From positions 1 to 20,432 of the IMG/VR virus record IMGVR_UViG_3300046804_002511: a stretch of DNA of 20,432 bases; one strand, 5' to 3'. Below are positions 1 through 17,352 of this stretch, one piece after another. Position numbers and translations under genes: made by a program. Under the pieces are notes generated by a model, which was not told where the DNA came from, made no database searches, and worked only from the letters and a program-made list of their open reading frames with translations. The DNA comes from a virus. How positions within the stretch are numbered: the first letter of the stretch is position 1; each line of letters begins with the position of its first letter.

Positions 1-1142
1 ATATTACCAGCAAAGTAATTACGAGTTTGGATTCTATTCGCCTCAAAGAATGCTTGCAACTTCTCTTTGGTTTCAGCAGTGTCTGTAATGATTGGAACAC
101 CGAACCACGATGGGTCAGCCTTGTTGAGATTACTTGCAACGCGAACGCCAGGAATATATTTTTCTAAAAGATCTTTGATCTTATTGAAGTTCCAACGACG
201 CTTTGTATCAATGTCGTCTATTTTCTTGAGTTGTTCTCGTCCGATCGCCCCTTGTAGGTCCAGAGGTTTAAGGTTGTATCCCATATTTGAGAATAGGTAC
301 TTGTGGTCGATGATGCCGTTGTATCCTTCGAGCCATTTGTCAAATCGATTCCCGCAAGTGCCACAAGCAAGCAAATTAGCAGCCCCGACACAGCGGCAAT
401 CGCGACCCCACCAAGATATAGAACGAGCAGTGTCAATAAGTTCTTTGTCATTCGAGCAAACCATCCCGCCTTCGCCAGTTGAAATGTGATGCGCTGGATA
501 GAAGGAAGTGGTCCAGGCATAATAATAATTAGTCAAAGGTTTTCCACCCCAGCGAGTGCCGAGTGAGTCACAATTGTCACCGATTAGATAGATATTATTT
601 TCTTTACAGAGCGATCCAATAATATCCATGTCTGGCGGATTACCAAGAACAGGTGATACGAAAATCGCGACGGTCTTATCAGTAATTGCTTGCTCAACTT
701 TATCAAGATCAAAGTTCAGCGTGTTCATTTCAATATCAACGAATACTGGCTTGAGATTATTCTGAACCAGCGGAGCAATGGTGGTTGGAAAACCAACAGG
801 TGATACGATGACTTCTGCACCATCCTTCCAACCCAAGTGTTTCTTCAACGCAGCAACCATTGTAAGATTGGCTGATGAACCAGAGTTGACCATGTGACAA
901 TGACCAACATTAAACTTACGACCAAACTCCCACTGGAACTTTGCGACTTGCTCGCCAGAGACCAGCCACTTGCCTGTGAGGAATGCACTTACGCCAGCGA
1001 TGATTTCCTTCTCATCCCAGTAAGGACCAGAATAGAAAACAGTATCCTTTTCTGGATTGAACTCTTTGCAGTTATAAGCATACTTCGGTGTGCCAACGGC
1101 AGCAACGAGTTGTTCAATCATCTTCTCCACATCAGTCTTCAT
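1..1142 (-). CDS. rfbH: RfbH/E1-type NDP-4-keto-6-deoxyglucose 3-dehydrase (3' end cut by window edge)
   Basis: Start is an ATG at 1142; 380 codons are visible and about 55 C-terminal residues of the family lie off the left edge. The fold is that of DegT/DnrJ/EryC1/StrS sugar aminotransferases, but the PLP-lysine is replaced by His: the stretch SFYPAHHISTGEGG carries H218/H219, the hallmark of the PMP-dependent E1 dehydrase. Four cysteines fit the E1 [2Fe-2S] pattern: C191 in GDNCDSLG, then after exactly 57 residues C249-x-C251, then C260 (with C263 as an alternative). DPSWFGVP and the FAGN motif near the visible end also match RfbH. In the family this enzyme, with a reductase (E3), removes the C3 hydroxyl of CDP-4-keto-6-deoxyglucose to give a 3,6-dideoxyhexose. 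No E3 gene is visible, so a host reductase may serve. It overlaps rfbA by ATGA and is the last gene of an rfbB-rfbA-rfbH run. Confidence 0.9.
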   Translation of the reverse strand, partial: MKTDVEKMIEQLVAAVGTPKYAYNCKEFNPEKDTVFYSGPYWDEKEIIAGVSAFLTGKWLVSGEQVAKFQWEFGRKFNVGHCHMVNSGSSANLTMVAALKKHLGWKDGAEVIVSPVGFPTTIAPLVQNNLKPVFVDIEMNTLNFDLDKVEQAITDKTVAIFVSPVLGNPPDMDIIGSLCKENNIYLIGDNCDSLGTRWGGKPLTNYYYAWTTSFYPAHHISTGEGGMVCSNDKELIDTARSISWWGRDCRCVGAANLLACGTCGNRFDKWLEGYNGIIDHKYLFSNMGYNLKPLDLQGAIGREQLKKIDDIDTKRRWNFNKIKDLLEKYIPGVRVASNLNKADPSWFGVPIITDTAETKEKLQAFFEANRIQTRNYFAGN

Positions 1143-2014
1143 AATGTCATCCTTAAAATTTGTCCAAGATATTTGCCATAATCAGATTTAGAATATTTCT
1201 CAGCAGCAAGAGTTACTTGATGTTCTGTAATCCATGCATTTTTATATGCAATTTCCTCAGGACATGCAATCATCATTCCAGTTCTACGTTGAACCGAACC
1301 AACAAAAGTTGATGCTTCAGCAAGCGATTCAAATGTTCCTGTATCAATCCAAGCAATACCACGATTCAAGTATTCAATTTTACAGTCATGATTTTGCATG
1401 TAAAGATTATTGATATCAGTAATCTCAAGCTCCCCTCTTGCAGAAGGAGATATCCTCCAAGCATATTCTACTACGTTATTATCGTAAAAGTAAAGTCCAG
1501 TGACGGCATAATTAGTTGGAGCAAATTTTGGTTTCTCAAGAATTCTGATAGGATCGCCATTCGCATTCAATTCAATTACACCAAATCGTTCTGGATCAGA
1601 AACATGGTAGGCAAATAACGTGCATCCAGAATTATTCCACTTGGCAGCATTGAATCGATTAATTAATTCATTACCATAGAAAATATTATCACCAAGAATA
1701 AGTGTGACATCATCATCACCAATCCACTTTTCTCCAATTCTGAAACACTCAGCAATGCCCTTTGGTTCAATTTGAGTTTCGTATGCGATATTCAATCCCC
1801 ATTGTGAACCATCACCAATTAATTTTTCAAATGGTCCACGATCAGCTGGTGATGTGATGATTAAAATATCTCGAATACCAGCCATCATTAATGTTGACAG
1901 AGGATAATAAACTAATGGTTTGTCATAAACAGGAAGAAGTTGTTTTGAGATAACTCTTGTGCATGGATATAAACGAGTTCCTAATCCACCCGATAGAATA
2001 ATTCCTTTTCTCAT
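1139..2014 (-). CDS. rfbA: Glucose-1-phosphate thymidylyltransferase (RmlA/RfbA)
   Basis: The 291-residue length is normal for RmlA. The enzyme joins glucose-1-phosphate and dTTP to give dTDP-glucose plus pyrophosphate, in the cytoplasm. The nucleotidyltransferase signature GGLGTRLYPCTR (residues 9-20) is followed by SKQLLPVYDKP (23-33) and LILGDNIFYG. This is the thymidylyl class; the glucose-1-phosphate cytidylyltransferase RfbF has a different N-terminus. The start at 2014 is chosen because its ATG overlaps the rfbB stop as ATGA and has GGAG 8 bases upstream; a GTG nine bases further upstream is in frame but less likely. One deviation from the usual family sequence is GIAECF where GLAQAF is common. 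It feeds RfbB, encoded just upstream. Confidence 0.95.
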   Translation of the reverse strand: MRKGIILSGGLGTRLYPCTRVISKQLLPVYDKPLVYYPLSTLMMAGIRDILIITSPADRGPFEKLIGDGSQWGLNIAYETQIEPKGIAECFRIGEKWIGDDDVTLILGDNIFYGNELINRFNAAKWNNSGCTLFAYHVSDPERFGVIELNANGDPIRILEKPKFAPTNYAVTGLYFYDNNVVEYAWRISPSARGELEITDINNLYMQNHDCKIEYLNRGIAWIDTGTFESLAEASTFVGSVQRRTGMMIACPEEIAYKNAWITEHQVTLAAEKYSKSDYGKYLGQILRMTL

Positions 2015-2958
2015 AGATACCACTCCAATGTTTTAATCAATCCATCTTGAATCTTAGTTTTGGCGAGCCAGCCAAGTTCAAGTTCAATTTTACCTGAATC
2101 AATTGAATAACGCAAATCATGACCTTTGCGATCATCAACGAATTTAATCCAGTCTTGATACATGTGAACTGGCTTACCCATGACATCAAGAATCATTGTA
2201 ACCATTTCAATATTCGAACACTCAAAGCCGCCACCAACATTATATCGTTCTCCAGTTTTTCCTCTATCACCAATTGTGATTAAAGCATCGCAGTGATCTT
2301 CAACATATAACCAATCACGAACATTCTCACCTTTACCGTAAATAGGCACTGGCTTATTTTCTTTGATATGACGAATTGCTGTTGGGATAAACTTCTCATG
2401 GTGCTGACGTGGACCATAATTATTAGAACAATTAGTCACAATTGCGTCAATACCATGAGTGTTGACATAGGCGCGCACTAAATGATCACTGGCTGCTTTG
2501 GTTGCAGAGTATGGATTACGTGGATTGTATGGAGTTTTTTCAGTAAAACTATTAGCAGTGAGTGATAAACTTCCATAGACTTCATCAGTCGAAACGTGAA
2601 TGAGTCGACCACCAAATTTACGAATGCACTTTAGAATTACGTGAGTACCAAGAATATTAGTTTGCAGAAACTCATCATCGCCATTGATCGAATTATCAAC
2701 GTGAGACTCAGCAGCAAAGTGAAAGGTTTTAGATGGCTGATATTCAATATACAGCTGCTGCATTCTATTCAGATTGGAGATGTCAACACGCTCAATCTTT
2801 ACGCGATAATCTTCGTAAAGACCGTAAATGTTGCGAGTGTTTGCGGCGTATGAGTAGTTGTCTAGAATAACAACCGTATCTGCTGCATGCGCCTGAAGAT
2901 ATTTAAAAACAAAATTTGAGCCGATAAAACCCAGCCCACCAGTCACGAATATAGTCAT
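2011..2958 (-). CDS. rfbB: dTDP-glucose 4,6-dehydratase (RmlB/RfbB)
   Basis: A 315-residue extended SDR that converts dTDP-glucose to dTDP-4-keto-6-deoxyglucose with a tightly bound NAD. The Rossmann motif GGLGFIG is at residues 7-13. The catalytic STDEVYG is at 123-129 (T124, D125, E126) and YSATK at 150-154 supplies Tyr150 and Lys154. HVDNSI, NCSNNYGPRQ and DRKGHDLRY are further RmlB signatures. Start ATG at 2958 has GAGG four bases upstream and lies 10 bases after the preceding peptidase-like gene. With rfbA it makes the activated 4-keto sugar that rfbH would deoxygenate. The rhamnose genes rmlC and rmlD are not recognisable in the window, so rhamnose is not the evident product. Confidence 0.95.
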   Translation of the reverse strand: MTIFVTGGLGFIGSNFVFKYLQAHAADTVVILDNYSYAANTRNIYGLYEDYRVKIERVDISNLNRMQQLYIEYQPSKTFHFAAESHVDNSINGDDEFLQTNILGTHVILKCIRKFGGRLIHVSTDEVYGSLSLTANSFTEKTPYNPRNPYSATKAASDHLVRAYVNTHGIDAIVTNCSNNYGPRQHHEKFIPTAIRHIKENKPVPIYGKGENVRDWLYVEDHCDALITIGDRGKTGERYNVGGGFECSNIEMVTMILDVMGKPVHMYQDWIKFVDDRKGHDLRYSIDSGKIELELGWLAKTKIQDGLIKTLEWYL

Positions 2959-6744: not shown

Positions 6745-6773
6745 ATTGTATAATATTTTAACTGAAAAAGCAA
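6745..6773 (-). promoter_or_regulatory. Candidate sigma70-like promoter for uvsX and downstream genes
   Basis: On the minus strand TTGCTT (6773-6768) and TACAAT (6750-6745) are separated by 17 bases; TACAAT matches the -10 consensus in 5 of 6 and TTGCTT the -35 in 3 of 6. It lies in the only intergenic gap of any size, 28 bases before the uvsX start. The -35 falls in the last codons of gp43. Unverified. Confidence 0.35.
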
Positions 6774-9298
6774 TCTAGTGATTCAACTTTTTCTGACTGC
6801 CAATTGATTGTTGACAAAATAATATCTAATGGCTCAAGAAACGATTTTGCAAATTGAAGGTCATAGTCAATGTATTGCATTGCTTCAAGTTGTTTTGGGA
6901 TACCAGATAAAAATGCAAGTGTATTATTATTGAACAAATTAGGCTGTTTTAGATAGATAAATTTAATTTTTTCGCCTTCTTTGATCAATTGATATTTCTT
7001 TGTTAAGTTTTTGTTTACAAGCAAATGATTATATACAAGTGCACCTTTAACATGAATTGGTGTTCCCTTTTTGAATATATTTGCATTATCAGAATATTCT
7101 GCTAATCCATTAACAGATCTTGGAAATGCAATATCTTCGGGCGGAAGGGTTTTAAACTCATCACGAAACTTGTTAATGAATTTATGTAAATCATCTTGCG
7201 TTTGCGTCATGATAATCGTAATCGCTTCTTTAATCTTCTGACGACAAGCCGAAGGCGTAGATGATTTAACCGCCTCAAGCCCCATAATTTTGAGTTTTGG
7301 TTTTGCATATGCAACACCTTCGCTATTGTGAACATTTAAAATATATCGTTTTTTTGCAGTCCAAATTGCTTTATCAGCCAATGATTCACGCTTCATTTCC
7401 ATACGCTGTTGGAATGCATTTACATAATCTTTTAATTCTTGATATGATGCATCAATAAATGGCTGAATCTTATCATCGCAAACCTTATCCATAAACTTAA
7501 TAACTTTCTTGGTATCAGAAGAATCAGGATATAGTTTCTTAATCAATGGACCCATGTTTAGATAAATTGAATCAGTATCAGAAGCAATTACATAATCTTC
7601 ATTATGAGTTCGCAATGTTTTATTCATGTATTCATTGATCTTCTTTTCAATCCAACGAATAGATAATTGACCAGCGGTGGTAATTCCCTCAGCAATTCTT
7701 GTATCAAAGAAGCGGAAGTATTGATTACCCAGCGCACCGTAAGCAGAGTTCAGCGTAACCTTTTTTGCCAACTGAAGATTATTGTATCGCGCTACCTGCT
7801 TCTCAAGATACTCAACTTGATTCTTATCTTCAAGAACTGTTTCGATTTTCTTTTTTGCCTCTAGAGCCAATTTCTTATAGCGTGTACGATCTTTGTACAT
7901 ATTATCCATAATTTCAGGCATTACACCTTGCTCTTGGATTTTAAATAATTGGCCATTCGGTGTTACAGTTACACCAAGATCCTTTAGAATAGTTGTATCA
8001 ACTTGTTGATTTAATAATGTGTCTACATTTACATCACAATTAGTAATAAATCCACGCATATTATCATTGTATTTCGATGGTTCAACGATTGTTTCCATTG
8101 AAATATTATATTGCATGATCAAGTGTGGATACAGACTATTCAAGTCAAATGATGCAACCCATTCATGCATTCCAAGAATAGGCTCTTTAACATACGCACC
8201 TTCATATGCTGTTTTCTTATCTCCTCGTTTCATTTGCGGAATGACAATCTTTTTCTTGAGAAGATAATTATAAACAATCGCATCCCACATACGCACTTGA
8301 GTGAACACGTCGTCGTAGTTGACCTTGTTATCATATGCAAGAGTCAAAGCCAACTCGATCAACTTCATCTTGTCTTCAAGTTTCTCAACAAGTTCTACGT
8401 CCTTGACGTTATACTCAATGAACTTTTGATAATCTTGTTTATAGAGTTGGTGGAGAGTTTCGAATTCAGAGTAATCAATCTTTTTTTCGCCCAACTCAAC
8501 GTGAGCAATGTTATCAAGTCTGTACGACTCTTGCTGAGAATATGTGAACTTGCGATAAAGTTGGATGTAATCTAGGATAGCAATACCTGGAATTTCATAA
8601 ACTTGTGTCGCACGATTCATGATATATGCTTCGCGCTCATCTAATCTATTCCAAGGAGAAAGTTTCTTGGCATCATCATCGCCAAAGACTTTTTTGATAC
8701 GATTTACAAGATAAGGAATATCGAATGTTTCAATATTCCAGCCACTCACTACATCTGGATAGAATCTGCACCAGAGGTCGAGGAAACGTCGTATGAGGTC
8801 TGACTCATCGCGGCATTTTGCATAGTACACGTCGTCACGGTGCTTGCTATAATCGCCGACACCAAACACAAAATAATTACCTTTAATTTTGATAGTGATG
8901 GCTGTGATTGCTTCATTAGCATCTCTTGGCTCTGGGAATCCATTTTCAGATCCAACTTCGATGTCAAGATAAGCAACGCAAACTTTATTATAATCCCACA
9001 ATACGTCATCAGCAAAATGATCGGCAATAAAAGAATACTCATAACGATTATTACCATAAACAGGGAAATTATCGACACTTTCATACCTCTTTAAAAATTC
9101 ACGACACTCTGGGATTGTCCCAGGTTGAATTGGCTTGACATATTCGCCATCAAGCGTTTTATAATCAGTCTTTTCATTTGCCAAAAGATAAAAGGTCGGA
9201 CGAAATTCAATTTTCCGTCTGACCCTCTTATCATTCTCGACACCACGGAATAGGATATATTTGCCTGAAACCGTGATGTTTGTGTAAAAATCTGACAA
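6758..9298 (-). CDS. 43: Family B replicative DNA polymerase (T4 gp43)
   Basis: 846 residues, slightly shorter than T4 gp43 (898). It has 3'-5' proofreading and polymerase domains. Exo I is YLDIEVG (D112, E114), Exo II WNIETFDIPYL (near 187-197), Exo III YNVKDVEL (D300). Pol motif A is SFDLNSLYP (383-391), motif B KKVTLNSAYGALGNQ (512-526), motif C SDTDSIY (573-579). The C-terminus VESLDCFFS resembles a sliding-clamp-binding peptide. The N-terminus MSDFYTNI aligns with MKEFYISI of T4, which fixes the start at a TTG codon (9298) with GGGG 6 bases upstream; no ATG occurs in frame for well over 100 codons. It lies three bases after the Sm-like gene, suggesting translational coupling. Confidence 0.96.
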   Translation of the reverse strand: MSDFYTNITVSGKYILFRGVENDKRVRRKIEFRPTFYLLANEKTDYKTLDGEYVKPIQPGTIPECREFLKRYESVDNFPVYGNNRYEYSFIADHFADDVLWDYNKVCVAYLDIEVGSENGFPEPRDANEAITAITIKIKGNYFVFGVGDYSKHRDDVYYAKCRDESDLIRRFLDLWCRFYPDVVSGWNIETFDIPYLVNRIKKVFGDDDAKKLSPWNRLDEREAYIMNRATQVYEIPGIAILDYIQLYRKFTYSQQESYRLDNIAHVELGEKKIDYSEFETLHQLYKQDYQKFIEYNVKDVELVEKLEDKMKLIELALTLAYDNKVNYDDVFTQVRMWDAIVYNYLLKKKIVIPQMKRGDKKTAYEGAYVKEPILGMHEWVASFDLNSLYPHLIMQYNISMETIVEPSKYNDNMRGFITNCDVNVDTLLNQQVDTTILKDLGVTVTPNGQLFKIQEQGVMPEIMDNMYKDRTRYKKLALEAKKKIETVLEDKNQVEYLEKQVARYNNLQLAKKVTLNSAYGALGNQYFRFFDTRIAEGITTAGQLSIRWIEKKINEYMNKTLRTHNEDYVIASDTDSIYLNMGPLIKKLYPDSSDTKKVIKFMDKVCDDKIQPFIDASYQELKDYVNAFQQRMEMKRESLADKAIWTAKKRYILNVHNSEGVAYAKPKLKIMGLEAVKSSTPSACRQKIKEAITIIMTQTQDDLHKFINKFRDEFKTLPPEDIAFPRSVNGLAEYSDNANIFKKGTPIHVKGALVYNHLLVNKNLTKKYQLIKEGEKIKFIYLKQPNLFNNNTLAFLSGIPKQLEAMQYIDYDLQFAKSFLEPLDIILSTINWQSEKVESLDCFFS

Positions 9299-9301
9299 GT
9301 T

Positions 9302-9607
9302 TTACCCCGTAATCAATTGTTTAGGAGGAACAACTATTCCCGTTCCGAATATTTGATTATACCCGTTTTTCACTTCATCCGCAACCTCTGCAACGACAAT
9401 AATTTTATCTTTTGCGATTGTAAAAGGTCCATTTGAAGAGTGCATCCAAGGCATAAAGCCAAGAGCAGCACCACCTGTTTGCTGAGAACGCTGAAGAACT
9501 GAAGCAACAGGATTTTTAAATGTGATGTTATTTTTTGTTTCTTCTGTTACTTCTACTACTAATTCCTCGCCACTTACGAGTTTTACTGCTTTGATTCCGT
9601 CCGACAT
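9302..9607 (-). CDS. Small Sm/LSm-like phage protein upstream of gp43
   Basis: 101 residues. The N-terminal strand pattern IKAVKLVSGEELVVEV (residues 5-20) followed by NNITFKNPV matches a family of small phage proteins with an LSm/Sm-like beta-barrel signature (hydrophobic-x-L-x-G-E-E). The assignment is by pattern, not by search. ATG at 9607 has AGAGGA about 7 bases upstream. Its stop is three bases from the TTG start of DNA polymerase. In T4 this slot holds regA, a translational repressor; RegA itself is not recognisable here. Sm-fold proteins often bind RNA, so a regulatory role is possible but inferred. Its first 80 bases overlap the preceding gene. Confidence 0.8.
   Translation of the reverse strand: MSDGIKAVKLVSGEELVVEVTEETKNNITFKNPVASVLQRSQQTGGAALGFMPWMHSSNGPFTIAKDKIIVVAEVADEVKNGYNQIFGTGIVVPPKQLITG
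9317..9333 (-). promoter_or_regulatory. Candidate RNA hairpin upstream of gp43 start
   Basis: On the minus strand TTGTT and AACAA form a 5-bp stem (6 with a G-U pair) around the 7-base loop CCTCCTA, about 19 bases before the polymerase TTG start. T4 gp43 represses its own translation through a small hairpin of similar size. The stem is weak and the match is only by geometry. Confidence 0.18.
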
Positions 9608-9800
9608 ATTCTTTCCTCTTAATATAATCTGCCAAAAACTTTTTTTCTTCTTTACGACTTATTTGTGTTCCATTTTGGTATAGAACGCCATGAGCCATGT
9701 ACCATTTATCTTTACCAACAATGAGTTCACATCCACTAAATGATTTGATCTCAACACCATTATCAAGTAAATATTTTTTTAGATCAGTTAGCGAATCCAT
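9528..9800 (-). CDS. Unknown protein, 90 aa
   Basis: Starts at the ATG at 9800 (MDSLTDLKKYLLDNGVEI), which overlaps the end of the kinase gene by 17 bases; a longer reading upstream would be antisense-like extension into the kinase and is not used. The protein is small and basic, with a predicted helix (residues 3-14) followed by a strand-rich part (ELIVGKDKWYMAHGVLYQNG), then a Lys/Arg-rich helix. The last 27 residues (residues 64-90) overlap the Sm-like gene in another frame and are basic and low-complexity. No family is recognised. No strong ribosome-binding site precedes it, so translation probably depends on the kinase gene. Confidence 0.65.
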   Translation of the reverse strand: MDSLTDLKKYLLDNGVEIKSFSGCELIVGKDKWYMAHGVLYQNGTQISRKEEKKFLADYIKRKEYVGRNQSSKTRKWRGISSRSNRRNKK

Positions 9801-10512
9801 CTGCGTACTGCGCTGCTCCGATGAATCCAGCATTATTGCCAAGTTTTGCTTTATGTACAGCACATGGTACGATTAGTCGATGCGCCCATGAATCCCATTC
9901 TTCGCTCACGCCACCACCAATAATGAGATTGTCTGGCTGAAACATATCACAAACATATTGTAGATAGATGTTCATACGATAGCCATATTCTTCCCAGTTC
10001 ATGTTGAGTTCTTTTCTGGCTCTACCTGATACAAACTCTTCAGCGGTATCAATACCACGTGGCATTGCCATGCGACCAAACTCCATGTTTGGAATCAGTG
10101 TACCGTTATAAATCATGGCTGCGCCAATGCCAGTCCCAAAAGTCAATAAGATTGTAAGACCATGCGTATCGATATTTGCTGACATCTCGGCGACTGCTGC
10201 AGCATCGGCATCATTGATAAATGTACAATCAACACCAAGAATATCTTTGGCTGTTTCTTTGAGATTTATACTACGCCAGCCAGCGTCAACATTAGTGGAC
10301 GTCAATGCACGATTATTTTTAACAGCGCATGGAATTGCCATGCCAACCTTTTGAATGTCGGGAGTTATCAATGATTTGATGGCATTGAAAACATTTTCTG
10401 GTGTAGATGGATTTGGTGTTGCAATACTTGGGTTGTGCGCAACACTCCCACTAGAATAAACATCCCCACTCTTTATAAAAGAGCCACCAAAATCTACGCC
10501 AAGTGTAGTCAT
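9784..10512 (-). CDS. ROK-family sugar kinase, closest to polyphosphate glucokinase (PpgK)
   Basis: 242 residues, the usual PpgK length. The N-terminal phosphate loop is GVDFGGSFIKSGDV (5-18). The catalytic Asp is in INDADAAAVAEM (D101). TFGTGIGAAMIYNGTLIPN (124-142) and the EFG after it match actinobacterial strictly polyphosphate or polyphosphate/ATP glucokinases more closely than ordinary ROK kinases, and IIGGGVS (197-203) is the second nucleotide-side motif. The family phosphorylates glucose to glucose-6-phosphate. The ROK zinc cysteine motif is absent, as in PpgK. Where PpgK has EFGH this protein has EFGR (R147), which removes a conserved sugar-binding His. Its place in a nucleotide-sugar island suggests it supplies hexose phosphate. 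Phosphoryl donor and sugar cannot be told from sequence. Start overlaps the upstream 68-residue gene as ATGA. Confidence 0.85.
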   Translation of the reverse strand: MTTLGVDFGGSFIKSGDVYSSGSVAHNPSIATPNPSTPENVFNAIKSLITPDIQKVGMAIPCAVKNNRALTSTNVDAGWRSINLKETAKDILGVDCTFINDADAAAVAEMSANIDTHGLTILLTFGTGIGAAMIYNGTLIPNMEFGRMAMPRGIDTAEEFVSGRARKELNMNWEEYGYRMNIYLQYVCDMFQPDNLIIGGGVSEEWDSWAHRLIVPCAVHKAKLGNNAGFIGAAQYADGFAN

Positions 10513-10715
10513 TCTGAATCTGCGCCGTCTCGATTTTCAGCAGTGTTGCGTTTTAATTTAAAATTGACATGATTTGCGTGGGCTTCAATAAACATTCGTT
10601 TTGTTGCTCCACGATCATGTTCATTACCAGCCCAACCATATGCTTGTTGCATTGATAACATACGTTTAATTGCACGTGGTAATTTAGCATTAAAAAAATC
10701 AGATCGATTAGCCAT
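10509..10715 (-). CDS. Small conserved phage protein of unknown function, 68 aa
   Basis: Begins MANRSDFFNAKLPRAIKRM and contains FIEAHANHVNFK. From memory this resembles short hypothetical proteins common in marine T4-like phages, but I cannot name a function. It is basic and mostly helical in appearance, with no membrane segment. The ATG at 10715 has GAGGA 8 bases upstream and overlaps the preceding glycosyltransferase gene by 8 bases; the stop overlaps the kinase start as ATGA. Its location between sugar genes may be accidental. Confidence 0.8.
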   Translation of the reverse strand: MANRSDFFNAKLPRAIKRMLSMQQAYGWAGNEHDRGATKRMFIEAHANHVNFKLKRNTAENRDGADSE

Positions 10716-11385
10716 TTAAAATATCCTCACATTTTTTAATAAATCGTTCTTTCTGACCTGGATAAAAACTTTGGTACATATGCCAGAACATTTGATTCTC
10801 TTCAGTACCAAATGTCGTACCGATACCGTATTTCGGCATACCATCAGCAAGATCCCAGTATGGTGGAAGATTTTTTGGTTCCCAGTCCATACGAATTGGT
10901 GGCGCATCATATCGAACTGGCATTAAAATTTCTACTGGAATATTATTTTCTTCAGCCTTAAATGTTAATTCTTCAGCCACATCACCACGATGATTTGGAT
11001 TAAATGATGGATTTCCACACTTACGATAGTTGGCTATTGTAAATGTGACATTATGTGGCGCACAAAACACATGTTGATTGTTTTGTATATGGTTACTTCT
11101 TTGAGCAGAACCAATTATCTTACCAGCATAGGCTTGATTGAAAAAATAATCAATCGCAGTATCATTCAATGGTAGTGCATCAACATCTAAAAACATTATT
11201 GAATCATGACCTCTTTCTTCAAGAAGATCGACCAATTTATCCATTGTATAGCCAGGAGGTGCTTCAGTTAACACTGGATAATGTGGAACTTTGGATTTAT
11301 TAAACTTTTCTAGAACCTTTTTTTGGTTTTCTAGAATAACTGGGTCAATATTCTTCATGAATATTGTGGCAATGCATGGTTTCAT
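10708..11385 (-). CDS. Glycosyltransferase-like protein with DxD motif
   Basis: 225 residues. SIMFLDVDALPLND (residues 62-75) carries D67-V-D69, the metal/nucleotide-sugar-binding DxD of GT-A fold transferases, at the expected distance from the N-terminal strand (CIATIFM). The C-terminal half is rich in aromatic residues (PPYWDL, NQMFWHMYQSFYPG) and shows no family I can name. No signal or membrane segment, so it is a cytoplasmic, soluble enzyme. It probably transfers a sugar made by neighbouring genes. Overlaps the upstream SDR gene as ATGA. The acceptor is unknown. Confidence 0.7.
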   Translation of the reverse strand: MKPCIATIFMKNIDPVILENQKKVLEKFNKSKVPHYPVLTEAPPGYTMDKLVDLLEERGHDSIMFLDVDALPLNDTAIDYFFNQAYAGKIIGSAQRSNHIQNNQHVFCAPHNVTFTIANYRKCGNPSFNPNHRGDVAEELTFKAEENNIPVEILMPVRYDAPPIRMDWEPKNLPPYWDLADGMPKYGIGTTFGTEENQMFWHMYQSFYPGQKERFIKKCEDILNG

Positions 11386-12269
11386 ATAATTTTTCTCATT
11401 CCCTCATCAAATGATATTGGACTATAATTTGGCATATGTTTTCGAAGTTTACTTATGTTTGGTCGACGATTGGTCACTGACCCCTGAACACTTGGCAATT
11501 CTTCAAACACAGCATCAGGATGACCAAGATGTTTTGCAATTATCTTAACTGCATCACCAATTTTAACTTCTGCATCATTGCCGATATTAACAACTTCTTT
11601 AGAAACATTTTCTGCCATGTGTATACTAGCAGCAACAGCATCAGAAATATAACAAAAAGATCTTGTTTCATTTGCGCCTATAACGCTGAATGTGCCATTC
11701 TTTATCTTATTAATTTGATCACCAACAAAATGTCCTTGTTTGCTATTTTTTCCGTAGACATTAAAGTATCGTAGAATTAACCATGGTAAATTGCTGTTGA
11801 CCAGGAAATTTTCACTTGTTATTTTGGCAAGTCGATAACTCCAGCGAGGATTATGAATATCTTTAATTAAAACATCAGTGTTTTCTGGAACAGGTGATGT
11901 TGGGTCATCTGCGACAATCTCGCTACTTGATGCATAAACAATATTTTTTAGATTTGTACATTTACTTGCAAAATTAAACACATTAATATCACACACAAAG
12001 TTATTTGTTAATACCTTGTTAGGATATTTGTAGAAATTTGTTGTGCCATTAATTGCGCCATAATGATATATGTAATCAAAATTTGTTGGTAGCACATCAA
12101 ATGTTCTTGGATCATTCAGATCATGATTTTCCCAAATATCGCATTCAGGAATAGTGGTTGAGCGCGAATGATTATCAATAGCCCAAACATGATGACCTGC
12201 TTGAGTAAGCTGAGCACAAAACTCAGTTCCGAGCAACCCACTTGCCCCAGTTACTAAAACTTTACTCAT
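11382..12269 (-). CDS. NAD-dependent epimerase/dehydratase (extended SDR)
   Basis: 295 residues. NAD-binding TGASGLLG at 7-14, catalytic Ser in YASSSE (112-117), and the YRLAK pair Y145/K149. RYFNVYG follows, as in nucleotide-sugar epimerases and decarboxylases, and NIGN and SFCYISD are typical C-terminal substrate-domain elements. GAINGTTNFYKYPNKV resembles SDRs of lipopolysaccharide clusters. The reaction (epimerase, 4,6-dehydratase or decarboxylase) cannot be decided. It is coupled by an 8-base overlap to the UGD-like gene upstream, so a joint pathway from UDP-glucose is possible. Confidence 0.87.
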   Translation of the reverse strand: MSKVLVTGASGLLGTEFCAQLTQAGHHVWAIDNHSRSTTIPECDIWENHDLNDPRTFDVLPTNFDYIYHYGAINGTTNFYKYPNKVLTNNFVCDINVFNFASKCTNLKNIVYASSSEIVADDPTSPVPENTDVLIKDIHNPRWSYRLAKITSENFLVNSNLPWLILRYFNVYGKNSKQGHFVGDQINKIKNGTFSVIGANETRSFCYISDAVAASIHMAENVSKEVVNIGNDAEVKIGDAVKIIAKHLGHPDAVFEELPSVQGSVTNRRPNISKLRKHMPNYSPISFDEGMRKII

Positions 12270-13041
12270 TGGTAATTTTCTTGTTGTCAGATAGCACAGA
12301 TTGAATCGTTGTGTAATCCAAATTTAAATTTTGCATCAATTTAGCCCAAGCAGATGTGTCTTTTGGCAAACAATGCCCACCAAATCCTCGCAAGTTTTCA
12401 TTGCACATAAGATATGCTGGATTAAAACAATCACGCTTGATAATAGTAGTATATACGTTATCATAATCTGCGTCAAGTTTTTTGCAAACTTCATAGAAAA
12501 TATTAGCAAAAATAATCTGAACACTATGGTTTACATTGTTAAAATACTTTACAATTTCTGCTTCAGTAGGACTGATGCATGACACTTGTCGAGGTAGCCG
12601 ACCATGAATTTTCTTGACAAGATCATAATCTTCTGTTCTGTTGCTACCAATTACTAGTAGATCATGATTGTACATAAAATCAGCAAGGGCAGATTTTGCT
12701 CTTAAAAATTCTGGTACACTGCAAACTTTTAATGGTGGGTGCGCTTTAGATAACTTCTCTGAAGTTCCTGGTGTAACAGTGCTTTTAATTGCAACCAAAC
12801 CACGATAATTTCGTTGGCTTAATTCCGAGGCAACTCTTTCAACAATACTAGTGTCGCATTCTCCATTCGGCAATTGATCAGTTGGAACACAAACAAAAAC
12901 ACAATCAGTATCCAAAACATCATCAATTGTTGAGCCTTCATATTTAACATCAAAGAAACTCATTTTATGGCCAAGATGATTTAACCCATCATAAACAGCT
13001 GTGCCAACAACACCTTTACCAATTACGCCAACTTTAATCAT
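12262..13041 (-). CDS. UDP-glucose/GDP-mannose dehydrogenase-like protein lacking the C-terminal domain
   Basis: 259 residues against roughly 390-450 for the family. Present are the Rossmann motif GVIGKGVVG (5-13), VCVPTD (50-55), KSTVTPGT (86-93), SVPEFLRAKSA (108-118, with E111), AEIVKYFNN (161-169, K165 and N169) and the catalytic GGHCLPKD with C224. The protein stops about 35 residues after the catalytic Cys, so the third, UDP-sugar-binding domain is absent. The family oxidises NDP-sugars at C6 in two NAD-dependent steps. Whether this short form is active is uncertain. Its ATG at 13041 has a strong AAGGAG 7 bases upstream, so it is probably well translated rather than decaying. Confidence 0.88.
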   Translation of the reverse strand: MIKVGVIGKGVVGTAVYDGLNHLGHKMSFFDVKYEGSTIDDVLDTDCVFVCVPTDQLPNGECDTSIVERVASELSQRNYRGLVAIKSTVTPGTSEKLSKAHPPLKVCSVPEFLRAKSALADFMYNHDLLVIGSNRTEDYDLVKKIHGRLPRQVSCISPTEAEIVKYFNNVNHSVQIIFANIFYEVCKKLDADYDNVYTTIIKRDCFNPAYLMCNENLRGFGGHCLPKDTSAWAKLMQNLNLDYTTIQSVLSDNKKITNE

Positions 13042-13636
13042 TTCGCAACTCCTTATGATAAGTCATATCAATGCATTTATTTTCTTTGCTGAATGTACAT
13101 TCTAGAATTGTTCTAGCGACGTCTTCAGGCATAATATATCTAGTCGCCGTTGGATTCATCATTTTAGTTTTTGTTTTTACAGGATTTACTAATACAATTG
13201 ATATGTTGCTATTTTCAAAATATTCGCATGCACTCAACCACAAATTATATAATGCTGCCTTACTCGCAGCATAAAGCATATACAATTTACGACCTTCGCG
13301 ATAAGCACTAGATCCTATCATGACAATCTTTACGTTCTTATTTGGTTGGTTGTCAATATAGTGTTTAATTATTGCCCAATTCGAACCAAAATTTATATCC
13401 ATAGTTTGACGATGTTCTTCTGAATTGTCAGAGAAATGTCCAATGCAATTCACAACTAAATCTGGATTGTATTGTAACAGTATAGAATTAATTTTATTAT
13501 AAACGTCAACATCGTTAAAGTCAACTTGTTCTCTATTGAGATTCACTACATTATAAGTTGATTGTAGTATATTAGAAACAGCAGAACCAATACCACCTGT
13601 GCTTCCAATCACAACAGCAGTTTTAATCGTTGACAA
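13034..13636 (-). CDS. Short-chain dehydrogenase/reductase with TTG start
   Basis: 200 residues, a classical SDR somewhat shorter than the 250 typical. The cofactor loop is GSTGGIG (11-17), the NAG position reads NCIG (63-66), and the catalytic triad elements are S109/S110, Y122 and K126 in YAASK. The Rossmann loop begins at residue 11, so the start must be close, and the only possible codon after an in-frame TAG is TTG at 13636, with AGAG four bases before it. It overlaps the cupin gene upstream by 14 bases and the UGD-like gene by 8. Probably reduces a keto-sugar or related intermediate; substrate unknown. Confidence 0.85.
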   Translation of the reverse strand: MSTIKTAVVIGSTGGIGSAVSNILQSTYNVVNLNREQVDFNDVDVYNKINSILLQYNPDLVVNCIGHFSDNSEEHRQTMDINFGSNWAIIKHYIDNQPNKNVKIVMIGSSAYREGRKLYMLYAASKAALYNLWLSACEYFENSNISIVLVNPVKTKTKMMNPTATRYIMPEDVARTILECTFSKENKCIDMTYHKELRND

Positions 13637-14027
13637 TTGACTCTACTCTTATGGTATCTTTTTCGTAATCTTCGCCGCCACGTGGTCCTTCAGCAAATGC
13701 AATGAATAGACAACCATCAGCACCAGCCTTCATTGCATGAATTTCTTTTGGTTCACTTATGATAAAATCACCAGCGACTGCATCATGATGTTTAATTTGA
13801 GTTCTATCTAGATCAGATGCATAATATCTTAATGTTCCAGATAAGATATATGTGTATTGAGTTGTATGGTTGTGGTAATGATTACCACGAACTGCACCAG
13901 GATTATTATTGATGATACAGCCATGATTCATAGATTTCTGATAAAAGATATCTGTGATAGTTCCACGATCATCTAGAAAACTTCCTAGATTTTTTTCTTC
14001 ATTATTGTAGATATTATAAACTTTCAT
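13623..14027 (-). CDS. Cupin-fold sugar epimerase/isomerase-like protein
   Basis: 134 residues with a single cupin. GAVRGNHYHNHTTQYTYILS gives the first cupin motif with metal ligands H50 and H52 and Q57, and GDFIISEPKEIHAM gives the second with H97. DDRGTITDI at the start is shared with sugar cupins. The combination resembles CapF C-terminal cupins and the dTDP-keto-sugar isomerase family (FdtA) more than RmlC, which is longer. It could isomerise or epimerise the keto-sugar made by RfbB, but this is inferred. Overlaps the methyltransferase gene as ATGA. Confidence 0.8.
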   Translation of the reverse strand: MKVYNIYNNEEKNLGSFLDDRGTITDIFYQKSMNHGCIINNNPGAVRGNHYHNHTTQYTYILSGTLRYYASDLDRTQIKHHDAVAGDFIISEPKEIHAMKAGADGCLFIAFAEGPRGGEDYEKDTIRVESIVND

Positions 14028-15259
14028 TGTGATATAAACCTTATGTTTGGATTAATCTTAAGAAGGATTTGTTTTAATGAGTCACTGATATTCCAACTGA
14101 GAATCAATGCATATGGGCGTTCATGTTTAGCAAACTCATCGTCGCTGCGAATAGGTATTCTTGAAAGCGGTGTGTATTTGCCCTGTTTACTATTTGATGC
14201 ATCAGTAATACAGTGTAACAGAGTTTTATCAAGTCTATGCCAGTTTAGCCAAGTGTTGGCTTTTGCTGCTGCCCCAACTCCAATTACAACTGCTTTTGGA
14301 TCATTTTCTAACAGTTCGTAGAATTTCTTTAACCAATTGGCTCTATCTAGTTCCAACTTCTTTTGAAAGCGATGATAGAATTCTACATCATATAATCCAG
14401 CTGCTGTTTCTTCTTCAATTGCATTTAAAATCTTTTCTTTGTTAGCATTGCGACCTTTCAGTTTAGCCTCAACTCTTAAACTACCACCATGATAATCAAC
14501 AATATCAAAGTCAACCATTTCTAATCCTGCAGCATTCAGCAAATTATAGCAACTCTTTACTGTAAAGTAACTGATATGCTCATGATAAACCATATCAACA
14601 AATCGATTACTCTGCACCATCACCAGCCAATATGGAACTTCGAAGATAAAAACACCATTGTCTGAAAGCAATGTTGCTACTGCTTTCGCAAAGTCTAGTG
14701 GATTATTCGAATGATTGAAAACATTATTAGCAATAATAATATCAGCCTTACCATCCTCGCTGAGGACTTCTTGCGCGACAGGCAATCCAAAGACTCTTTG
14801 AATTGATCGGATACCATTAGAATTTGCAGTATCACACATTTGCTTAGAACAATCTATTCCAAGAATCTTTTTATTATTCTTTGCAAACTGATTGATTAAG
14901 TAACCATCATTGCTACCAATCTCAACAGAGAATTTATAATCTCCATATTTGTCTAAAGCATATGCAGCAAATTCATCCCAATGTTTTCTAGAAACTTTAG
15001 AATTGCTAGATGTATAACTGTATTCGTAAAGATTATATCGCTCTTCATCATCGCTCATATATCCAAGTTGAATCATTCCAGAATCTTTATTCAGAAACAA
15101 TTGTAATGGGAATACTGGCTCAGAGAGATTTAATTGATTCTCAGCAATGAATGTGTCAGCATAAGAATGCTGACCAAAATCTAGAATTTTTTCTACCTGG
15201 CTACCAGATATAAGACAATTCTTTAAAACTTTACTCGTGTACAATGAGTTCATAATCAT
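14024..15259 (-). CDS. NDP-sugar C-methyltransferase (TylC3/NovU-like)
   Basis: 411 residues with three parts: an N-terminal domain, a SAM-binding core, and a C-terminal Rossmann-like domain. The SAM motif is VEIGSNDGYL (112-121). YHEHISYF (225-232) is the hallmark that provides catalytic Tyr/His/Glu in sugar C-methyltransferases, and GVGAAAKANTWLN corresponds to the GASAKGNT-type C-terminal motif. Known members methylate C3 of TDP-3-keto or 4-keto deoxysugars to give branched sugars. The N-terminal four-Cys zinc site of the family is degenerate: C15 remains, but the positions of the other three read S, N and S. An alternative ATG at 15253 is possible. 29 bases overlap the upstream gene. Confidence 0.88.
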   Translation of the reverse strand: MIMNSLYTSKVLKNCLISGSQVEKILDFGQHSYADTFIAENQLNLSEPVFPLQLFLNKDSGMIQLGYMSDDEERYNLYEYSYTSSNSKVSRKHWDEFAAYALDKYGDYKFSVEIGSNDGYLINQFAKNNKKILGIDCSKQMCDTANSNGIRSIQRVFGLPVAQEVLSEDGKADIIIANNVFNHSNNPLDFAKAVATLLSDNGVFIFEVPYWLVMVQSNRFVDMVYHEHISYFTVKSCYNLLNAAGLEMVDFDIVDYHGGSLRVEAKLKGRNANKEKILNAIEEETAAGLYDVEFYHRFQKKLELDRANWLKKFYELLENDPKAVVIGVGAAAKANTWLNWHRLDKTLLHCITDASNSKQGKYTPLSRIPIRSDDEFAKHERPYALILSWNISDSLKQILLKINPNIRFISQ

Positions 15260-16133
15260 TTGACTCTACTTTTTTGTTATACCAATCTTCTTTATTTTTT
15301 ATAATACCAGCGAAATGCTCAGCCCGAGCTTTTTCTTCTGGGTATTTAATGAAGTATCCAAGTTCATCATTCCAATATCCTGGTGCCCAGCGATATGACG
15401 TATCCTTTGATCTTACAGAATACATGTGATATGGAAATGTTCCAAAATATTGTGCACCTTCACCGAATTCAATATCAAGAGTATTCTTAACAGCGGCTTC
15501 AAGATTCTTAAATGTGTGCATCATAACCTTCCGATAAATTAAATCTGGATTAGTTATAATATGTTTCATTATTGATAGATATCCTTCTACATTTTGCCGT
15601 GACAAAACAGCATATCGGTCAGTTATTCCACCATGGTATTCGCTATCTGGAACCCAAACATATTTTGGATTAAGTAATTCCATTGGCGGATGTGGACAGA
15701 GATACAAAAAATCAGATCTTGTTACAATAAATCGATCATATTGATCCAATACTTTACTGTTTTTTAAATTATGCAATAATAGCCATCTGAAAAAGATAAG
15801 AATTGCTCCCGCACCTGGAGCATTATTGATTGGAGAGAGCCAGTTTGCTTGGCGATCTTCGTTGAACAACATGTATTTCCAACGATCAGTGTGTTCTGGG
15901 AAATCAACTACGCGAGCATACTCAAACGCATTGACCCAGTCATCATATTCATGAGTTGTCCATTTATATTTGGCTGTTTGCCAGAATGGATTGTTATAAT
16001 CATAGTCGTCATTAACAGAGATGCAAAGCGCAAGATCTGCGTTTAAAACATCTAAAACATTGTTCTTAAAACTATTCCATGACAGTTCATGTTCTCTTGT
16101 TTGAGAAATGACACAGACTAAAGTTTTTTCCAT
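15231..16133 (-). CDS. Putative glycosyltransferase (RSD...GGxxDRYA type)
   Basis: 300 residues. The motif pair RFIVTRSDFLYL (134-145, R139-S140-D141) and VPDSEYHGGITDRYAVLS (161-178) is seen in soluble sugar transferases of capsule and lipopolysaccharide clusters, where RSD plays the part of a DxD and GGxNDR(F/Y)A binds the sugar. The N-terminus (LVCVISQTREHELSW) fits a Rossmann-like strand. There are no membrane segments. The exact family and donor are not known to me. It sits between a GT2 gene and the C-methyltransferase, consistent with the transfer of the modified sugar. Confidence 0.65.
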   Translation of the reverse strand: MEKTLVCVISQTREHELSWNSFKNNVLDVLNADLALCISVNDDYDYNNPFWQTAKYKWTTHEYDDWVNAFEYARVVDFPEHTDRWKYMLFNEDRQANWLSPINNAPGAGAILIFFRWLLLHNLKNSKVLDQYDRFIVTRSDFLYLCPHPPMELLNPKYVWVPDSEYHGGITDRYAVLSRQNVEGYLSIMKHIITNPDLIYRKVMMHTFKNLEAAVKNTLDIEFGEGAQYFGTFPYHMYSVRSKDTSYRWAPGYWNDELGYFIKYPEEKARAEHFAGIIKNKEDWYNKKVESNDYELIVHE

Positions 16134-16867
16134 GGTAAATTTCCATTATGAAGTTCAAGCATTTTTTGATTTCCTTGTAAAAAGAAATCTGCTTGAACAG
16201 AAAGCCCAGTATTGCCGACTCTATATTGTACTGTATAATCTCGAGTGCAGTCAAACTTTAATTTATTATTCATTAGCACATGAGCAATAGCCCGATCAAT
16301 TTCCATCTGACCAGGCTCGCGGAACTTGCGATACCAAACAGGACTCATGCCAACTGCAACTTCTTTCTTTACGAAATAACAATTAACATCAACAAAAAAA
16401 TCTTTTGGATGAAGAATAGAATGCCACATTCCGAGTGATTCGCAATCATCCAGACATAAAACCTTACCATCCTTATCAATAATTTTGCGGAAAGAGTATG
16501 CCCAGTCTAGATTTTTTTCTTGTACGAGTTTTACAAGTTTCTCAATATGATCTGGCTCAAGAATATTGTCGTCGTCTAGCCAGATATGATAATCACCATC
16601 TGCGAAATAAGTAGTGCCGCCATACACACGATGACCGTTATAACGGTCAGTCCCTGTAGGATACGGTAAGACCAATAATTTGTCACTGCTACTCTCTCCT
16701 CTCGGAAATGTTGCTTCAAATAAAATAGGTTCAGCATTTTGCCAACGCGATCTACCATCAACTACAACAATGTGTTCGACATTCTTATAAGTTTGATTGC
16801 GCACAGACTCGATGCAATCTTTGAGAAATAGATTACCAACAGTTGGTGTAATGACTGTAACTTTCAT
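16118..16867 (-). CDS. Family 2 glycosyltransferase
   Basis: 249 residues. The N-terminus MKVTVITPTVGNLFLKDCIE with SVRNQTYKNVEHIVVVDG is the GT2 nucleotide-binding strand set (D37). IWLDDDN (96-101) is the metal-binding DDD, and the remaining C-terminal region is compatible with an acceptor site. Start at 16867 is preferred over a GTG 12 bases upstream, since the motif begins at residue 3 and the upstream gene ends at 16870 with no overlap. No membrane anchor. It transfers a sugar from an activated donor; which one is unknown. It ends 16 bases inside the next gene. Confidence 0.9.
   Translation of the reverse strand: MKVTVITPTVGNLFLKDCIESVRNQTYKNVEHIVVVDGRSRWQNAEPILFEATFPRGESSSDKLLVLPYPTGTDRYNGHRVYGGTTYFADGDYHIWLDDDNILEPDHIEKLVKLVQEKNLDWAYSFRKIIDKDGKVLCLDDCESLGMWHSILHPKDFFVDVNCYFVKKEVAVGMSPVWYRKFREPGQMEIDRAIAHVLMNNKLKFDCTRDYTVQYRVGNTGLSVQADFFLQGNQKMLELHNGNLPWKKL
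16632..16649. repeat. Perfect 18-bp palindrome
   Basis: TGACCGTTATAACGGTCA is its own reverse complement. It lies within the GT2 gene, over codons for TDRYNGH, and has no gene start nearby. Confidence 0.9.
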
Positions 16868-16869
16868 GG

Positions 16870-17352
16870 TTAATCCCACAGATTCTCATAATACTTACCG
16901 AACAAACGCAATGCATTCTTGCGGCGAGCATAGTATGCTCTGTATTTTTCTTCGTCGCGAAAGGTGAAGCGATCTTCAGTCTGTTCCTTATCAATTTTTT
17001 TGCGCTTGTACTTCGGCTTCTGAATCCAGAACTGTGGATCGCGATCGAGTTTGATCTCGTTGAATGCCCAGATCATCTCTTGCATGATCCAATTCCAACG
17101 CTTGAAGTGATTCTTGTCTACATCCCATTCGTTTTTCTTGGGTGGTGCAGAAGTTGAGCGCAGTTTTTCTGGCACATCTTCATCGTCGGTCATGGGTGCG
17201 CCATTATTGGCCTCATGTAACTGCACCAACATCGGATGAATGATATACGCAAGAGTGTGGTCCATCGACCACGTATCCCACGGATCAATCTTGACCGAGA
17301 TCTTGCGCTGTTTCCTTGAGTCCTTGGGATACTTGCCGATTGAGATCTTCAT
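16870..17352 (-). CDS. Conserved phage hypothetical protein, 160 aa
   Basis: The segment VKIDPWDTWSMDHTLAYIIH (from about residue 20), continuing with a PMLVQLHE-like part, is a phrase I recall from hypothetical proteins widespread in tailed phages. The rest contains DEDVPEKLRSTSAPPK and WNWIMQEMIWAFNEI, and the C-terminal half is charged (KRKKIDKEQTEDRF). It has no membrane segment or catalytic motif that I recognise. Length is typical for the family. Its start overlaps the 74-residue gene by 68 bases. Role unknown. Confidence 0.85.
   Translation of the reverse strand: MKISIGKYPKDSRKQRKISVKIDPWDTWSMDHTLAYIIHPMLVQLHEANNGAPMTDDEDVPEKLRSTSAPPKKNEWDVDKNHFKRWNWIMQEMIWAFNEIKLDRDPQFWIQKPKYKRKKIDKEQTEDRFTFRDEEKYRAYYARRKNALRLFGKYYENLWD

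Follow-up and report, generated by a model that had tools for sequence, protein, structure and literature searches.

Genomic context of the kinase gene

The window, by which we mean the whole 20,432-nucleotide stretch of IMG/VR record IMGVR_UViG_3300046804_002511 that was analysed, carries a sugar kinase gene in the following setting.

6758-9298, minus strand: T4-like DNA polymerase gp43, with Synechococcus phages as its best cultured relatives (~52%)
9302-9607, minus strand: F7, a small conserved protein between F15 and the DNA polymerase
9528-9800, minus strand: F15, a small protein whose ATG overlaps the 3′ end of the kinase gene
9784-10512, minus strand: PpgK-family sugar kinase gene, 242 aa (open reading frame, profiles, structure match and tree)
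10509-10715, minus strand: F2, a 68-aa protein without assigned function, directly upstream of the kinase slot throughout the lineage
10708-11385, minus strand: F3, a 225-aa GT-A-like glycosyltransferase candidate with an FLDxD motif, a constant neighbor

The open reading frame of 242 codons that a preliminary description had placed at 9784-10512 is present, both peptides quoted there (one of them NDADAAAVAE) are found in its translation, and the observation is confirmed. The strand, missing from that description, is minus. The dN/dS ratio of the kinase is 0.16 for the window and L001 and 0.11 for L091 and L092, with dS near saturation in both pairs, and the ratios of neighboring genes range from 0.06 to 0.16. 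By this sequence-based measure the kinase is under purifying selection, and the ratios support a coding function for the open reading frame. The model of F3 is of moderate quality (pLDDT 78.9), and its resemblance to GT-A is weak (TM ~0.4).

The order F3-F2-kinase-F15-F7-gp43 is common to the window, L087, L088 (with L089 and L090), L091, L092 and L093, and L001 has the same gene order up to the end of its contig. The TGA of F2 overlaps the kinase ATG in the window (ATGA), and across the related loci the start codon of the kinase lies on or next to the end of F2, and F15 begins where the kinase ends. Where relatives lack the kinase, F2 runs straight into F15, its stop codon overlapping the F15 start (TAATG). 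Among the best 80 distinct loci from two pattern-limited scans, the counts of which are not population frequencies, the interval from F2 to the polymerase contains the kinase in six (1205-1227 bp) and is short, or empty, in 68 (327-594 bp, about 490 bp); five more hold a membrane-like protein of 271-283 aa at another point, and one measures 645 bp. Because the slot is empty in 68 of the 80 distinct relatives, the kinase is an accessory gene that was inserted cleanly. Several independent contigs, one of them 197 kb long, show it amid phage genes. In other phages the membrane-like protein has its insertion point one gene removed from that of the kinase, and the stretch upstream of gp43 seems to act as a hot spot for insertions. 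This second protein (MQIIVLMTALFLSGVAAYYSI...) sits between F15 and F7 in L128, L147, L151, L153 and L198.

The F2/polymerase loci from IMG/VR (L124-L281) represent a large T4-like lineage for which no cultured members were found; their polymerases are 80-87% identical to that of the window, which in turn is ~52% identical to those of Synechococcus phages. F2 had no match in cultured phages. The genes psbA and psbD are absent from the two longest, near-full-length relatives (197 and 173 kb), so a cyanobacterial host lacks support. HNH and GIY-YIG homing-endonuclease-like open reading frames were noted by sequence inspection at L092:453-1007 and L086:9631-10299, both on the minus strand.

Distribution among phages

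IMG/VR yielded nine further contigs encoding seven distinct relatives, 42-73% identical to the window kinase, and bacterial relatives reach ~40% identity. A query of the genome contigs with the single protein returned no relative, whereas an alignment query of the same contigs did. Seven of the eight viral kinases occupy the same locus in a T4-like lineage that is related to cyanophages and for which no cultured members were found. The eighth, L086 (57% identical to that of the window), comes from a jumbo-phage contig resembling PA5oct; the closest matches to the helicase encoded there are in Pseudomonas jumbo phages of the PA5oct group (54%). The polymerase tree shows the kinase in scattered positions, requiring five changes of which at least three are forced, and identity to the window is 42-49% for the kinase vs 79-87% for replication genes. 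Due to this scatter and the presence of L086 on a jumbo-phage contig, the gene appears to move between phage lineages.

The preliminary description knew of no such gene as a standard part of T4-like phages, and this is borne out. No phage PpgK was found in INPHARED, no PHROGs family matched the kinase, and a fold search of BFVD gave no ROK-like protein among its best matches, which were Hsp70s (TM ~0.5-0.6). In the literature searched, no report of a phage polyphosphate glucokinase was found. Even in its own lineage the kinase is not standard, as most relatives are without it. Two INPHARED entries labeled "Bacteriophage sp.", MT836823.1 (L004) and MT835553.1 (L005), matched at 34% and were rejected as pieces of actinobacterial chromosomes; in the tree described below, L005 adjoins Brachybacterium and L004 falls among actinobacteria.

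Family placement and catalytic motifs

In profile searches the match of the kinase to ROK and PpgK models is far beyond chance. It scores 79 bits against Pfam ROK (PF00480; E 5.6e-22), passing the curated cut-off of 22.9, and its best NCBIfam model is PpgK NF045942, matched over the full model length at 185 bits (E 1.8e-54), which falls short of the equivalog cut-off of 250 bits. The runner-up, ROK_glcA, reaches 69 bits and no other model scores higher. The closest solved structure by sequence is PDB 1woq, the polyphosphate/ATP-glucomannokinase of Arthrobacter (E 5.5e-33), which scores 322 bits in profile comparison vs 110 for the next structure. The same entry ranks first in a fold search with the AlphaFold2 model of the kinase (pLDDT 95.5, from an alignment of 64 sequences), with a TM of 0.88 and an E-value of 2.3e-24 (next, 4.2e-18).

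A tree of 105 rows (IQ-TREE, LG+C20), which sampled PpgKs other than those of cyanobacteria, unites the eight viral kinases in a single clade (support 100/99) nested within bacterial PpgK on a long stem (1.15 changes per site). The PpgK side of the tree, with the viral clade and 1woq, is separate from the ATP-type ROK kinases (100/99). The bacterial branch nearest to the viral clade is L010, from the Pseudomonadota MAG G2_26 (100/89), which at 277 bits lies above the NF045942 cut-off.

Three motifs could be located in the gene:

10471-10494, minus strand: phosphate-1 motif D7-x-G-G-S-F-I-K14 (from sequence; role from PMC4252912)
10204-10215, minus strand: N100-D101-A102-D103, with the catalytic Asp101 (role of Asp from PMC4252912)
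10072-10089, minus strand: N142-x-E144-x-G-R147, the sugar-binding ExGH with Arg in place of His (motif role from PMC5458393)

The DxGxT-like N-terminal motif of ROK proteins (D7-x-GGS) and the catalytic Asp (D101) are thus present, and Asp101, DxGGS/T, Lys14, GTGxG, Asn142, Glu144 and Glu158 are kept in all viral members. The zinc motif CxCGxxGCx(E/D), which is missing from PpgK and some NanK, was not found in the viral kinase nor in any of the 83 PpgK rows; CxCGxxGC is present in 8 of the 11 other ROK proteins. This comparison set of 11 excludes L104, L114 and L123, which are copies of PpgK genes. Taking as PpgK-diagnostic any residue found in at least 90% of PpgK and at most 20% of other ROK proteins, the window kinase keeps eight of ten, the exceptions being G12F and G106A. 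Diagnostic positions conserved across the viral clade are K14, D103, G118, N142, S203 and N226; Lys14 occurs in 83/83 bacterial PpgKs vs 1/11 other ROK proteins.

The preliminary description had assigned the protein to the PpgK type rather than to ATP-only ROK kinases. Profile, structure, tree and diagnostic residues all agree with this. Placement in an ATP-only clade, named beforehand as the result that would speak against it, was not seen in the tree. Membership of the PpgK family is supported at the level of sequence and predicted fold, the viral proteins forming a divergent branch of it. Calling the viral kinase an authenticated PpgK would go too far, because it lacks ExGH and scores below the equivalog cut-off.

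Sugar genes in the same phages

Sugar genes in the window include:

1139-2958, minus strand: module of rmlA (1139-2023) and rmlB (2011-2958), named by sequence inspection
11382-16879, minus strand: variable sugar island of the window phage (profile matches), with an epimerase, a short nucleotide-sugar dehydrogenase, an SDR, a cupin, a C-methyltransferase, a 300-aa protein and a GT2 glycosyltransferase

The rmlA/rmlB module is conserved in L088-L090, and rmlB is also found in L093. The nucleotide-sugar dehydrogenase (12262-13041) is only 259 aa long, matches positions 71-296 of the 413 in its model and is without the C-terminal domain.

The preliminary description had linked the kinase to sugar-nucleotide genes, and this link gained support from a family that we term F10, present in 5/6 kinase-bearing vs 1/26 kinase-less loci, the latter being those with at least 3.9 kb of upstream sequence (Fisher p 1.7e-4, uncorrected for shared ancestry). 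In L087, L091, L092 and L093 (for example L093:3147-4529) F10 joins a beta-phosphoglucomutase-like HAD domain and a sugar-1-phosphate nucleotidyltransferase in one fusion protein, and in L088 it is the nucleotidyltransferase alone. L189/L192 are an exception, having the F10 cassette without the kinase. The fusion is missing from L001 and from the window phage, which has a different island but does carry an rmlAB-like module; the cassettes beside the kinase vary between phages. As a pattern of gene content, the co-occurrence supports, but does not prove, the idea that the kinase serves NDP-sugar supply.

One such cassette also encodes, between a cupin and a methyltransferase, a RuBisCO-large-chain-like protein (L088:4740-5984, also in L089 and L090; Pfam RuBisCO_large, E 1.1e-41), which scores 188 bits against the form III model, below its cut-off, and is also similar to the decarboxylase OiaX.

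Proposed role

We lean towards reading the gene as a phage accessory ROK kinase of the PpgK type that feeds NDP-sugar supply, with polyphosphate as the most likely donor. Such an enzyme would most likely act on a hexose inside the cell, be it glucose, mannose or a derivative, phosphorylating its 6-OH at the expense of polyphosphate and possibly NTP as well. A mutase, either that of the host or, in sister phages, their own beta-phosphoglucomutase-like domain, could then convert the hexose-6-phosphate to hexose-1-phosphate, which a phage nucleotidyltransferase (rmlA or the fusion protein) would join to a nucleotide. In combination, kinase, mutase and nucleotidyltransferase would lead from free hexose to NDP-hexose, which phage modifying enzymes and glycosyltransferases would use. 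A saving of ATP, as envisaged in the preliminary description, would be a possible consequence.

Polyphosphate use is likely by analogy with the rest of the family. The choice of donor stays inferred because the range of the family is broad and, to our knowledge, no sequence rule separates strictly polyphosphate-dependent PpgKs from those that use polyphosphate and NTP; the acceptor, the direction of flux and the use of host polyphosphate stores are likewise inferred. Characterized PpgKs range from strictly polyphosphate-dependent (All1371, Methylomonas) to enzymes using polyphosphate and NTP (PMC4252912, PMC6406325). A PPK2 search of the related phage contigs found none.

Sugar acceptor and alternative explanations

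The ROK ExGH motif is absent from the viral clade, with Arg at the His position (R147) in 8/8 members. The same position is His in 71 of 83 bacterial PpgKs (Arg in 6, Gln in 5, Ser in 1) and in 11/11 other ROK proteins. Further clade-wide changes affect G12, G106A (A106 in 8/8), W176Y (Y176 in 7/7) and F209W (W209 in 7/7); ExGR and these four changes had been overlooked in the earlier reading of the gene. In ROK kinases ExGH interacts with the sugar, and its His is Tyr in LmNanK (PMC5458393), the PDB entry of which, 4htl, is named beta-glucoside kinase. The clade-wide change from ExGH to ExGR, together with the length of the stem branch, calls for caution: the enzyme may accept a sugar other than glucose. 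The pocket changes, and the fact that the cassettes beside the kinase differ from phage to phage, would fit a PpgK-derived enzyme whose acceptor has become a deoxy, amino, acidic or phosphorylated sugar, a direct precursor of the glycan pathway. We consider such a switch doubtful, as the catalytic Asn/Asp is preserved, as are both Glu ligands, and one Bacteroidota PpgK clade likewise has Arg, Gln or Ser here; this clade accounts for most bacterial departures from His and indicates that the position tolerates change.

An ordinary ATP- or GTP-dependent hexokinase built on a PpgK scaffold, with polyphosphate unused in vivo, is quite improbable. Many characterized PpgKs accept NTPs too (PMC4252912) and the PpgK score lies under the cut-off, but the closest characterized relatives are all polyphosphate users, the tree shows no relation to ATP-only clades and the PpgK-diagnostic residues are retained. 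We give very little credence to a non-catalytic protein that keeps only the ROK fold, such as a sugar or polyphosphate sensor, a scaffold or a partner of F2: D101, DxGG...K, GTGxG and E144/E158 are invariant in 8/8 and the gene is under purifying selection, and while F2 and F3 are constant partners, the ExGH motif is altered and the kinase diverges faster than the replication genes, F2 and F3 are present without the kinase in most relatives. Bacterial contamination or misassembly, of the kind seen in the two mislabeled INPHARED entries, is ruled out by synteny, the kinase lying between T4-like genes in an order conserved across independent contigs, one of 197 kb, with start/stop codon overlaps and matching empty sites.

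A bolder proposal, which we put forward as speculation and hold to be unlikely, is that a virus-specific PpgK branch with a remodeled pocket (ExGR) spends host polyphosphate during infection on charging a non-glucose sugar for the synthesis of phage glycans, and passes together with NDP-sugar genes, as one module, from one phage lineage to another, unrelated one. If active with polyphosphate, the kinase would be, as far as we found, the first demonstrated case of a phage enzyme that pays for sugar activation from a host phosphate reserve, and it would connect such stores of phosphorus with phage glycan or DNA-sugar chemistry at no cost in ATP. Should it prove inactive with polyphosphate, it is still an accessory kinase inserted at one site between T4-like genes and occurring in both T4-like and jumbo phages. 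The consistent ExGR change in the viral clade also offers a handle on the role of the ExGH histidine in PpgK enzymes.

Comparison with known systems

The Arthrobacter enzyme (1woq) resembles the viral kinase in length, fold, DxGG..K, NDAD, GTGxG, NxExG and the lack of a zinc motif. The two differ in that identity is ~31% and the viral protein has ExGR for ExGH, G12F, G106A and other changes; the former is a polyphosphate/ATP-glucomannokinase, whereas the activity of the phage-encoded protein is predicted from sequence. L010, the sister of the viral clade, shares GGSFIK with it but has the canonical ExGH, passes the NF045942 cut-off and is ~40% identical to the viral kinase. All1371 of Anabaena (PMC4252912) and the PpgK of Methylomonas sp. 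12 (PMC6406325) share family, motifs and the lack of CxCGxxGCxE with the viral kinase, but both are bacterial chromosomal enzymes with measured activity, and a Methylomonas relative (L036) falls on the same side of the tree as the viral clade but is not its sister. A Bacteroidota PpgK clade (Polaribacter, Roseivirga, Persicitalea and others) has also lost the ExGH His (ExGR/Q/S); it forms a well-supported clade of its own (100/99), and the change arose independently. Finally, ppk1 and ppk2 have been reported in phages (PMC13188868) and are, like the kinase, polyphosphate-related phage accessory genes, but they encode polyphosphate kinases, which belong to another protein family and are not sugar kinases.
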